Positions 16,411 to 32,835 of a stretch of DNA of 32,835 nt are shown one piece after another. The stretch comes from a virus. The stretch is from the IMG/VR virus record IMGVR_UViG_3300021180_000003, positions 1-32,835 of that record; one strand, written 5' to 3'. Within the stretch, counting starts at the first letter, position 1, and the number at the start of each line of letters is the position of its first letter. The notes beneath the pieces were generated by a model. That model was not told the DNA's origin, did no database searches, and saw nothing but the letters and a program-made list of their open reading frames with translations. The translations under genes were made by a program, and so were the position numbers.

Positions 16411-16444
16411 TGCTTTTCACTCCATGTGATTAGTTAACAAATCC

Positions 16445-16473
16445 ATGTTAATGGGAGGTACACACCAAGTCAA
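16445..16473 (-). promoter_or_regulatory. Leftward early promoter, copy 1 of 17-bp element
   Basis: On the minus strand, -35 TTGACT (16473-16468), 17-bp spacer, -10 TAACAT (16450-16445). The -35 and part of the spacer lie in the element GTACACnnnAAGTCAAC (16458-16474 on +). It points at the 142-residue gene. Confidence 0.65.
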
Positions 16474-16497
16474 CAATTAATTTAAACATATTTGCTG

Positions 16498-16526
16498 TTG
16501 CTCTGCTGAATAAAGTAAAGTATAGT
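16498..16526 (+). promoter_or_regulatory. Rightward early promoter
   Basis: -35 TTGCTC (16498-16503), 17-bp spacer, -10 TATAGT (16521-16526). It would start transcription near 16533, inside the second copy of the 17-bp element, and drive the small genes, Cro-like gene and probably the replication genes. Confidence 0.55.
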
Positions 16527-16541
16527 ACACGTAAAGTCAAC
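16512..16541 (-). promoter_or_regulatory. Copy 2 of the 17-bp element, possible second leftward promoter/operator
   Basis: The element GTACACnnnAAGTCAAC lies at 16525-16541. On the minus strand it gives -35 TTGACT (16540-16535), 17-bp spacer, and a weak -10 TACTTT. It overlaps the -10 and start region of the rightward promoter, so a bound regulator would affect both directions. Confidence 0.5.
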
Positions 16542-16553
16542 TTGGAGATTGAT

Positions 16554-16742
16554 ATGTTAGATTTACTGAATTCTTTAGATGAGATGATTGACGATCATAT
16601 GTGGAAGATGAATCAGAATATTGATGCTAATACTTTAGGGGATATGCTTCAGGCGATAAAACATTTGCGAACGCTTTGTGAATCTCGCGGTGTTATTGAA
16701 ATGGCGTATATAATGAAGAGGTATGTTCATGAGAGAGATTAA
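16554..16742 (+). CDS. 62-residue early protein, unknown
   Basis: Start chosen at ATG 16554 with TTGGAG upstream (spacing seven). The product is helical and acidic (LDLLNSLDEMIDDHMWKMNQ, LQAIKHLRTLCESRG). It is the first gene of the rightward unit and overlaps the next micro-ORF by 14 bases. I do not recognise the family. Confidence 0.6.
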   Translation: MLDLLNSLDEMIDDHMWKMNQNIDANTLGDMLQAIKHLRTLCESRGVIEMAYIMKRYVHERD

Positions 16743-16821
16743 ATTTCGTTTATGGAATAAAAAAGAATCTAGTTGGAACGATGATTTTCTTTTATTAGAT
16801 AGAAAGAAGAAAAATAAATGA
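16729..16821 (+). CDS. 30-residue YopX-like N-terminal fragment
   Basis: ATG 16729 lies in the end of the preceding gene and the stop overlaps the ATG of the next gene (ATGA). The sequence starts MREIKFRLWNKKESSWNDD, which is the classic N-terminal motif of YopX-family phage proteins (usually well over 100 residues). The rest of the domain is missing, so this is either a remnant that survives for coupling or a micro-protein. The family function is not known. Confidence 0.5.
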   Translation: MREIKFRLWNKKESSWNDDFLLLDRKKKNK

Positions 16822-17270: not shown

Positions 17271-18023
17271 ATGTTTCCAGCGCAGGCAATAAATCAATAT
17301 CTTTCTACTAATCCAGATATATCGTCAAAAGAATATACAACTCTTTGCGCTTTATCTTCTTATTTTGGAGACAAGATTGAGTGTTGGCCAAAACAAAAAA
17401 CATTATCTGAACGAACCAAACTATCCATTAGAACCATTAAAAGGGCCATTCAGCTTCTAAAAGAAAAAGGTTTAATTTTAGTCAAAAAGGTCAGATATCT
17501 TAACCATTATTTTTTAAACACTGATTTCTTCAAGGGCCTTATTCCGCGGGTTTCTGTCACCTCTAAAGTGCCACTCTGGCCCCTTAGAAGTAAACAAAGA
17601 AATAAAGAAGAAATATTAAACGTGTGTGATAACGAACGTCGTATGTATGGAGATAAAAATATGAACAACACACAGGATATATTATTGGATAAATTTGAAC
17701 CCAATGAATATGCTCGGCAGCTGGCAGCTACTAAGGGGATTGATTTAGAGCTAGAGACTGAAAAGTTCAAGAATTATTACAAGGCAAAAGGAAAATTATT
17801 TATTCATCTACACCCGTTATTTACTAATTGGCTGTTAACCATTCAACCACGCATAGGAAATGCAAATCATGGAACAAGGAAATCTGGCTCCGATATTATA
17901 TGGGACTCTTACCGAAGAAACTGTCCTGAAGACTTCAATGCCGTCCAACGACGTGAGAAGGACGTTGCCACGCAAGTGGACGGACCGGCTCTTCTCCCGA
18001 TTGAGTGTGATATACCTTTCTAA
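17271..18023 (+). CDS. Replication initiator, lambda O-like
   Basis: 250 residues. Residues 20-95 form a winged helix-turn-helix of the kind at the N terminus of phage replication proteins (LCALSSYFGDKIECWPKQKT, LSERTKLSIRTIKRAIQLLK, EKGLILVKK). Such proteins bind iterons at the origin and recruit the helicase loader. The middle is a polar linker, and residues 145-195 form a second helical domain. The C-terminal 54 residues overlap the next gene in another frame. Gene order with a P-like partner supports the call. No clear iterons are seen inside the gene. Confidence 0.65.
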   Translation: MFPAQAINQYLSTNPDISSKEYTTLCALSSYFGDKIECWPKQKTLSERTKLSIRTIKRAIQLLKEKGLILVKKVRYLNHYFLNTDFFKGLIPRVSVTSKVPLWPLRSKQRNKEEILNVCDNERRMYGDKNMNNTQDILLDKFEPNEYARQLAATKGIDLELETEKFKNYYKAKGKLFIHLHPLFTNWLLTIQPRIGNANHGTRKSGSDIIWDSYRRNCPEDFNAVQRREKDVATQVDGPALLPIECDIPF

Positions 18024-30628: not shown

Positions 30629-30675
30629 TAGACTGATGTTGTTAAGACGCCAGCTACATAAAGAACCACTTCACT

Positions 30676-30710
30676 AAACCCACTTCTGCATAGCGGGAGT
30701 TGGTTTTTAT
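30676..30710 (+). terminator. Candidate terminator after portal unit
   Basis: AACC-C-ACTTC pairs with GGAGT-T-GGTT with one mismatch (loop about 9 bases), followed by TTTTTAT. A rho-independent terminator is likely. Confidence 0.6.
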
Positions 30711-30735
30711 CTCATCTACCAATGGCAGAGTGAGT

Positions 30736-30770
30736 TGGGCAAATCCTTCGGAGGCGCCCATTTTTATTTG
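30736..30770 (+). terminator. Rho-independent terminator of the packaging unit
   Basis: TGGGC pairs with GCCCA, with an inner TCC-TTC-GGA hairpin, followed by T5-A-T3. It is a strong terminator. Together with the preceding one it separates the terminase-portal unit from the scaffold-coat unit. Confidence 0.75.
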
Positions 30771-30979
30771 CATGACTCATCATCAAACAACTAACATCTA
30801 ATTCTATACAGCCCACATAAACATTGACTTCTCTTGCATGCCTCAAAGTGAGAGTTTCATGTTTAAGATGATATCCATGTGTTTTTTAGGTAGGTATTTT
30901 CACTGTAAGTCCGGAGCTAAATTTTGCCGTAAGGAATACTCTTTAATTTTTGATATAGAAAACGAGGGTGACCTCTGCC

Positions 30980-31007
30980 TTGACAAACTTTAAAAGTTCC
31001 ATATAGA
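30980..31007 (+). promoter_or_regulatory. Promoter P1 before scaffold
   Basis: -35 TTGACA (30980-30985), 16-bp spacer, -10 TATAGA (31002-31007). The spacer contains AACTTT-A-AAAGTT, a perfect inverted repeat and possible operator. Near-consensus -35. Confidence 0.6.
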
Positions 31008-31015
31008 ACATTTCA

Positions 31016-31107
31016 CCACTTTTACCCCAAAATAGACCAATATTTAGGTGCATTTCCCCACTTTAACCCTAAAAACACACAAAATAATTGACACGATCCC
31101 CACTTTT
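31016..31107 (+). repeat. Three CCACTTT elements at 42-bp spacing
   Basis: CCACTTT(T/A) begins at 31016, 31058 and 31100, an exact 42-bp period (four turns at 10.5 bp). Copies 1 and 2 share a longer block: CCACTTTTACCCCAAAA and CCACTTTAACCCTAAAA. Copy 3 (CCCCACTTTTGAT) lies in the spacer of promoter P2. Likely a protein-binding array. Confidence 0.65.
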
Positions 31108-31115
31108 GATATATT
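31088..31115 (+). promoter_or_regulatory. Promoter P2 before scaffold
   Basis: -35 TTGACA (31088-31093), 16-bp spacer, -10 TATATT (31110-31115). Transcription would start near 31122, about 95 bases upstream of scaffold. The third CCACTTT element lies in the spacer, so the site may be regulated. Confidence 0.65.
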
Positions 31116-31216
31116 TGAGCTACGCAATGCTGCGGGACTTACGCGGTGTCGAAAATACCGTGGGGCTAACGTGAGGCCTATCAAATTCATGGGGCACAAG
31201 ATGCCGAGGAGACGAT

Positions 31217-31957
31217 ATGCAAGATGAAACTCAAGATTCTGGAATGGAAAACAATCCAGATGAAGTTATGGATACATTAGGTGTTGGCGACGACGACCAT
31301 AAGAGTGAACCAGTTCAACCAGCTGAAGATGACTTGCCGGGACATATTAAACAACGATTAGCCCGTCAGGAGAAAAAGCATGCTAAGGAATTAGCTGCTA
31401 TCAGACGCGAAATGGCTGAAAGGATGAATCCTATTCCCTCTCACGGTCAACCAACTGCTCCTTCTGAATCCTACCAAACTGACCATCAAATACAGTTACG
31501 CAATGAAGTCCATAAAGTTCTTCATGAAGAACGTGAACGCGAGAAACAGCGTCATGTTGAAGAACAGTATCAGAAGATGCACCAAGATTTGGGCGCTGCT
31601 GGTCATAAATATGAAGACTTCGAAGATGTCGTAATGGGTGATGACGTGCCATTCACGAGCGCTATTCGTGATGCAGCATTACTAATCCCTGCCGACATGC
31701 GAGCTGATGTTTTATATAAGCTTGGAAAAAACAAAGATGAGTTAAAGCGCATATTGAAGCTCCAACCGTTAGAGCAAGCACAAGAGGTGATTAAGCTTTC
31801 TCACGGTTTGATGGGCGGCGATAGGTCTAGCAGTCACGGTTCGAAGCCATTAAATCCAATGAAAGGCAATCCTTCAGTTAACAACTCTGCTCGCGGCGTA
31901 AATGAAAAGACATCAGTCAGTGAATTACGCAACAGAATGAAGTCAGGTTGGAAATAG
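31217..31957 (+). CDS. Scaffolding protein, P22 gp8-like position
   Basis: 246 residues (P22 gp8 has 303). Acidic N terminus (QDETQDSGMENNPDEVMDT), a highly charged helical middle (LARQEKKHAKELAAIRREMAER, EVHKVLHEEREREKQRH), and a basic C terminus (VSELRNRMKSGWK), the usual layout in which the C-terminal helix-turn-helix binds the coat. Directly between portal and coat genes, as in P22. RBS GAGGAGACGAT. Scaffold guides coat assembly and leaves the mature head. Confidence 0.8.
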   Translation: MQDETQDSGMENNPDEVMDTLGVGDDDHKSEPVQPAEDDLPGHIKQRLARQEKKHAKELAAIRREMAERMNPIPSHGQPTAPSESYQTDHQIQLRNEVHKVLHEEREREKQRHVEEQYQKMHQDLGAAGHKYEDFEDVVMGDDVPFTSAIRDAALLIPADMRADVLYKLGKNKDELKRILKLQPLEQAQEVIKLSHGLMGGDRSSSHGSKPLNPMKGNPSVNNSARGVNEKTSVSELRNRMKSGWK

Positions 31958-32013: not shown

Positions 32014-32835
32014 ATGGCTAATCAGTTTATTAATACCGAGCTCGTCAGTAACACCGCACTTGCAATGTTTGCTAACAACGCTCCCTTCTTGATGACCGGC
32101 TCCCGCATTTACCAAGACGATTTCACCAGTCGTGGTTATAAAATCGGCGATACTCTTCAAGTCCGCAGACAAAATCAATATATCGTTGGCGACGGCTCTA
32201 CAGCTACTCCCCAAGATATTATCGACACCGTTGAAAATATCACTGTAAATCATCAGTATCACACGATGGTTCAGTATACCATTCAAGACTTAAGCTTAAA
32301 CATCCAAGACTTCACCACTAAGTTCATTCAACCTGCGATTCAAAACATCATCACGCAGATGGAAACTGATTTGAGTCGTGCGCTTGAATTAGAAGCTAAC
32401 TTCTATACTGGCACTGCTGGCACCCCCATCAATTCTTTCACCACTGTTGATTTGGCTGGTGCTAAATTACTGGAACAAGGCGTTAACATTGCTAGCGATA
32501 CTTACTTAGCAATGACTGTGCGCGATGGTTCTGCATTGAAAGGCTCCTTATTAAACCAATTCACTCCGGTATTCAACGAAGATATCGTCCGCAGTTCTGC
32601 GATTGGTCATTTGTCCTACTTCGACATTTTCCAATCCCAAAATATCCAACGTCACATTGCTGGCGCAGGACCAACCTTATATCCTGGCGATACTTTGACT
32701 GTAAACGGCGCTGTAGTTTCTGGTAACACCATCGTATTAGCTGGCGCTACTGCAAGCATTACTGATTACTTCTTACCTGGCGATTTGATTTCTATCGCTG
32801 GCGTACAGTCTGTAAACCCAGTAGGCCGCGCATCA
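32014..32835 (+). CDS. Major coat protein, P22 gp5-like, N-terminal part (continues at base 2)
   Basis: 274 codons from ATG (RBS TTGGAGATTGAGAA) to the window end, in frame with the C-terminal part at 2-526; total 406 residues. The N terminus (MANQFINTELVSNTALAMFA, then a loop with RQNQYIVGDGST) and DLSLNIQDFTTKFIQPAIQN match P22 coat-family features, with an N-terminal arm, long helix and the start of the telokin-like inserted domain (from about 200: IAGAGPTLYPGD). Follows scaffold by 56 bases. Confidence 0.88.
   Translation, partial: MANQFINTELVSNTALAMFANNAPFLMTGSRIYQDDFTSRGYKIGDTLQVRRQNQYIVGDGSTATPQDIIDTVENITVNHQYHTMVQYTIQDLSLNIQDFTTKFIQPAIQNIITQMETDLSRALELEANFYTGTAGTPINSFTTVDLAGAKLLEQGVNIASDTYLAMTVRDGSALKGSLLNQFTPVFNEDIVRSSAIGHLSYFDIFQSQNIQRHIAGAGPTLYPGDTLTVNGAVVSGNTIVLAGATASITDYFLPGDLISIAGVQSVNPVGRAS
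32709..32835. repeat. Terminal direct repeat, right copy (assembly overlap)
   Basis: Exact copy of bases 1-127; see the left copy. Removing it closes the circle at 32,708 bp and restores one intact coat gene. Confidence 0.9.

Follow-up and report, generated by a model that had tools for sequence, protein, structure and literature searches.

Phased CCACTTT direct repeats upstream of a phage scaffold gene: a possible operator array with counterparts in unrelated phages

The window analysed here (the whole 32,835-nucleotide stretch of IMG/VR record IMGVR_UViG_3300021180_000003) carries, upstream of its head scaffolding gene, three copies of the heptamer CCACTTT on the + strand, with successive start-to-start distances of 42 and 42 bp, and this triple is non-random. 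The reading which we rank first, and which we favour tentatively, is that of an operator array at the scaffold-coat promoter; an array recognised by the terminase is ranked a close second, the two being nearly in balance. The record has 127 identical bases at its two ends (1-127 and 32709-32835), inside the coat gene, so it represents a closed circle and the phage genome measures about 32.7 kb. The features considered are listed in Table 1. The array is found 2.9 kb past the large terminase gene (TerL) and beyond the portal gene, in a non-coding gap which is longer than that of most relatives (often about 110-200 bp).

Table 1 Coordinates of the features considered in the window
Feature	Position	Strand	Description
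Initiator-like gene	17271-18023		about 13 kb from the array
TerS gene	start 25922		packaging/head gene
TerL gene	start 26578		packaging/head gene
Portal gene	start 28131		packaging/head gene
Non-coding gap	30629-31216	.	588 bp, flanked by the portal-side ORF and the scaffold gene
P1	30980-31007	+	weak promoter candidate, by sequence; TTGACA - 16 bp - TATAGA
Site 1	31012-31032	+	core 31016-31022; extended motif TTTCACCACTTTTACCCCAAAA
Site 2	31054-31074	+	core 31058-31064; extended motif TTTCCCCACTTTAACCCTAAAA
P2, predicted scaffold-coat promoter	31088-31115	+	TTGACA (31088-31093) - 16 bp - TG.TATATT (TATATT 31110-31115); predicted start about 31122
Site 3	31096-31106	+	core 31100-31106; within the P2 spacer; weak flanks
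H-type pseudoknot	31163-31195	+	scaffold mRNA leader; GGC/GCC stem; CGTGAG 31170-31175 with TTCATG 31186-31191
Scaffold gene	31217-31957	+	phrog_8865 head scaffolding protein, E 9.8e-08
Coat gene	start 31999		P22-type

The original prediction had placed CCACTTT starts at 31016, 31058 and 31100 with a 42-bp period and proposed same-face sites about four helical turns apart. Both points are borne out by the sequence: 42 bp corresponds to 4 x 10.5, which puts all three sites on one face of the helix. It had also credited the first two copies with 16-17 similar bases. They are indeed similar, but this understates their likeness, as the two 24-nt repeats (31009-31032 and 31051-31074) are identical at 21 of 24 bases, a self-match reached in 0 of 1000 shuffles. 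Dinucleotide shuffling of the 588-bp gap produced an equally spaced triple of any 7-mer (spacing 12-120) in 1 of 3000 trials, and the whole genome contains a single one, the CCACTTT triple, against 0.03 expected. The lone word is only mildly enriched in the genome (9 copies for 4.3 expected), and the six copies outside the array have flanks unlike those of sites 1 and 2. A matrix derived from other phages (42 sites in 14 arrays, picked by core and spacing only) and scored on the flanks alone ranks site 1 first and site 2 fourth of 65,582 positions. When the comparison is confined to the AT-rich gap they come first and second, and base composition thus does not account for their ranks. Site 3, whose core and spacing fit, is the weakest of the three, its flanks ranking 4598 with the same matrix.

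The strongest predicted promoter of the region, P2, matches the consensus hexamers at 11 of 12 positions and carries a TG before the -10 element; its score was equalled in 0 of 200 shuffles of the region, with the reservation that the sigma-70 consensus may not suit the host. The sites fall at about -103, -61 and -19 of P2, and the third copy lies inside its spacer, as had been claimed. The -10 position and the leader are homologous to those of relatives; as the -10 of P2 precedes a pseudoknot leader found in these relatives, P2 very probably is the promoter actually used by the scaffold gene. P1, whose predicted start coincides with site 1, is not among the promoters listed by the scan that found P2. 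The leader pseudoknot is separate from the array and marks the transcript. Among 52 leaders, its second stem occurs with 34 distinct arm pairs and has a mean of 4.9 bp, compared with 3.5 bp (maximum 3.85) when the partners were shuffled between phages; an Rfam search with the leader returned 0 matches. The region 31134-31216, together with relatives L002-L087, presents a conserved scaffold-coat operon leader in which a covarying H-type pseudoknot immediately precedes the ribosome site, and the leader of the window apparently holds two such pseudoknots in tandem. In P22, synthesis of the scaffolding protein is known to be regulated by the protein itself, which makes the conserved leader a candidate target.

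According to the operator reading, one sequence-specific protein would recognise about 21 bp, made up of TTTC, a C or an A, and CCACTTT-N-ACCC-N-AAAA, in sites 1 and 2 and would bind site 3 more weakly; co-operative binding or wrapping would shut P2 and P1 until late infection. It is favoured by the location of the array next to and over P2, with the conserved leader downstream, and by the presence of site 3 in the spacer of such a promoter. Repression would be likelier than activation at P2, because its near-consensus hexamers should need no help and site 3 lies between them. Positions -61 and -103 are also working positions of class I activators at CRP promoters. The window array resembles helically phased phage operators and CRP-type class I/II activator sites in that its sites occupy one face of the DNA, both within a sigma-70 promoter and upstream of it. 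It differs from them in consisting of asymmetric direct repeats rather than palindromes, next to a -35 element which is already consensus. Weighing against the operator reading, site 3, the main basis of the promoter link, has the weakest flanks, and similar arrays elsewhere are often found at terminase genes. The same operator would usually, though not obligatorily, be found at other promoters of the genome or be conserved in relatives, but CCACTTT is absent from the early control region (16411-16817, between the 15982 and 16818 genes) and the array is absent from the relatives. This early region has a different direct repeat, GTACAC..AAGTCAAC (16458-16474 and 16525-16541), which is a candidate operator of early regulators. 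Nothing in this region links the array to the 16818 Cro-like protein or to the 15982 protein.

The relatives used for comparison are about 60 IMG/VR loci with coat proteins 78-81% identical, portal about 50% and scaffold about 40%; none closer than about 43% in scaffold was present in the collections searched. The array is absent upstream of the scaffold gene in all of these loci, no CCACTTT pair at 40-45 bp occurs in the 43 relative records searched whole, and other 7-mer repeats at the homologous place show no peak at 42-43 bp. The idea that the relatives carry 42-bp repeats of a different sequence at this position was rejected, as none were found. Upstream of their scaffold genes, a -10 element (predicted by pattern matching) is followed by the conserved leader. 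At least 11 relatives have a palindrome whose centre lies 29-30 bp upstream of the base at which the -10 begins (L004, L017, L018, L020, L021, L042, L049, L057, L065, L078 and L082). If this base is taken as -12, the centre falls at about -41.5, the usual position of class II activators in CRP-type promoters. The palindromes (L017, L020, L021, L042, L049, L065, L082 and others) differ in sequence while their position remains constant. The window has no palindrome there, but TTGACA and CCACTTT sites instead. The capsid promoter is probably activator-dependent throughout the clade, with a fast-changing specificity, and the control elements of P2 are unlike those of the relatives. Concerning the proposal of phased sites as an activator or repressor array, the phasing and the overlap with the scaffold promoter stand, but the closest relatives lack the element. 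The window has mainly virion genes in common with ten relatives, and in these no counterpart was found of the tested candidates for a regulator or initiator (14886, 15982, 16818 and 17271). Regulator candidates that differ while virion genes are common fit a swap of the regulatory module, after which the late promoter would have to acquire new control sites. The simplest reading would be such a swap, accompanied by a corresponding change at the late promoter.

The original prediction had regarded loss of CCACTTT and of its spacing in the closest relatives as evidence against it, and these relatives have indeed neither the element nor the 42-bp period. Both recur, however, in phages unrelated by genes, so the CCACTTT array is no private accident. 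Three copies at exactly 42 bp were found in 16 viral contigs, where some are tandem repeats, often coding, and others are not. When the gaps were left free (29-58 bp), those of the non-tandem triples among the matches listed peaked at 42 bp (18 of 82 gaps), with 7 at 43 bp, the split between tandem and non-tandem being our own sorting. Two copies of TTCCCACTTT at 41-44 bp occur in 40 contigs, mostly at exactly 43 bp; most of these contigs belong to one family, with the pair between the TerS and TerL genes and a GC-rich core between the sites. In this L339 family (L336-L371, L433, L440, L471, L481 and others), the conserved GC-rich core GTCTCGATCGCTCGCCGG at the TerS/TerL junction is flanked by AAAGTGGG sites, two or three in number, of which two have a spacing of 43 bp, and the junction looks like a cos- or pac-type site. 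In L171 the orientation of the core is kept and the flanking sites are inverted. Searches with an extended single site gave 4 matches for TTYCCCACTTTNACCCNAAAA and 84 for TTTCCCACTTTGACCC (17 for the reversed control). As 54 of the loci represent a single identical context, found in many prophages, and the L339 family accounts for most of the rest, one site is no evidence; two or three sites at the correct period are required. No match to the array was obtained by BLAST among phages and plasmids, a literature search for the motif returned nothing useful, and nearly all 42-bp triples in a scan of bacterial genomes are tandem repeats.

This recurrence is among the arguments for the second reading, a pac-like array whose direct repeats would be bound by a small terminase ring that wraps about 126 bp, with packaging starting nearby. 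Among the matches listed, and with triples chosen regardless of genes, a large terminase adjoins 7 of 11 arrays with both spacings at 41-43 bp and 1 of about 16 with other spacings, an association which comprises few independent cases and many short contigs. Independent arrays next to terminase genes, confirmed by profile, are those of L092, L103, L171, L150, L147, L135, L176, L335, L339 and L370. There is usually one array per contig, without an inverted partner array, and the fit of the window sites to the matrix of this class by flanks alone points in the same direction. The arrays in TerS/TerL regions (L339 family, L335, L358, L361, L092, L103, L171, L150, L147, L135 and L176) share with the window the CCCACTTT core, TTTC before it, an A-run after it and the 41-43 bp period. 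They differ in being located at the terminase genes and in not overlapping a sigma-70-like promoter, and several have a GC-rich core between the sites which is missing in the window. A precedent is provided by phage SPP1, in which the pac, located in the packaging/head region, contains direct repeats and extends over promoters, so that promoter overlap could be secondary in the window as well; the SPP1 pac is nevertheless situated at the small terminase gene and has another repeat sequence, while the window array lies past the portal (PMC4737164). The window TerS (phrog_4102) is related to the phrog_1482 family, which is found beside four arrays. On the other hand, the array of the window is 2.9 kb away from TerL and has no GC-rich core, the small terminases beside arrays come from several families and the array does not co-vary with them, an array of this kind is missing from relatives whose small terminase is orthologous, and none was found in the regions examined of Sf6-type relatives of one array-linked TerS. 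The idea that such arrays generally overlap promoters was rejected: at 18 other phage array loci the overlap was no better than in shuffles, which weighs against the operator reading, and the window's array is the only one lying over a strong promoter.

The two readings could also be combined. Phased, packaging-linked CCCACTTT direct repeats of 41-43 bp period would then be common to unrelated phages and terminase families and would here be placed on the scaffold-coat promoter, with one protein reading both packaging and capsid expression, which we consider unlikely. Candidate sites of one sequence and period are found in phages which have different terminases and little else in common, and the identity of the binding protein would show either a rewiring of the capsid operon after a regulatory swap or a common packaging-site element.

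Less probable still is a captured or leftover transposon end with repeated transposase sites of the IS21/Tn7/Mu type. At the ends of IS21, direct repeats about 20 bp long, with two contact regions each, are spaced by 23 bp, which amounts to roughly 43 bp start to start and resembles the array in size, direct orientation and period (PMC10122671). The window has no second end, no istA/istB and no evident target duplication, and no transposase gene was recognised among the window proteins tested. No inverted partner array was seen in the window or near the other arrays, save for weak matrix hits in a few loci; a search of the tested array loci for an IstB-like motif gave nothing, and the true IstB loci examined are devoid of CCACTTT arrays. 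The idea was rejected on these searches. An origin of replication with iteron-like sites, raised in the original prediction, is very unlikely: asymmetric sites which span about two turns and are directly repeated at a multiple of 21 bp, within an AT-rich gap, would suit it, and some other arrays are in or near replication-type genes (L097 and L264), but its position gives no support, with the initiator-like gene far away and a strong promoter on the array. Least credible is a chance coincidence of three short words, for which the absence of the array from close relatives and the poor flanks of site 3 could be cited, and against which the shuffles, the likeness of sites 1 and 2 and the independently built matrix all argue.

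Two further observations concern other loci. Arrays of (G)GCCACTTT with an exact 21-bp period are present in L222, L242, L248, L287 and in the genomes to which these loci belong (Gracilibacillus and Sporolactobacillus), with several per chromosome, some of them clearly intergenic. In L525 (MW202785.1, 3305-4937) and L520 (OR260089.1, 1131-3934), the annotation splits the large terminase gene into two pieces, which are separated by a further stretch.
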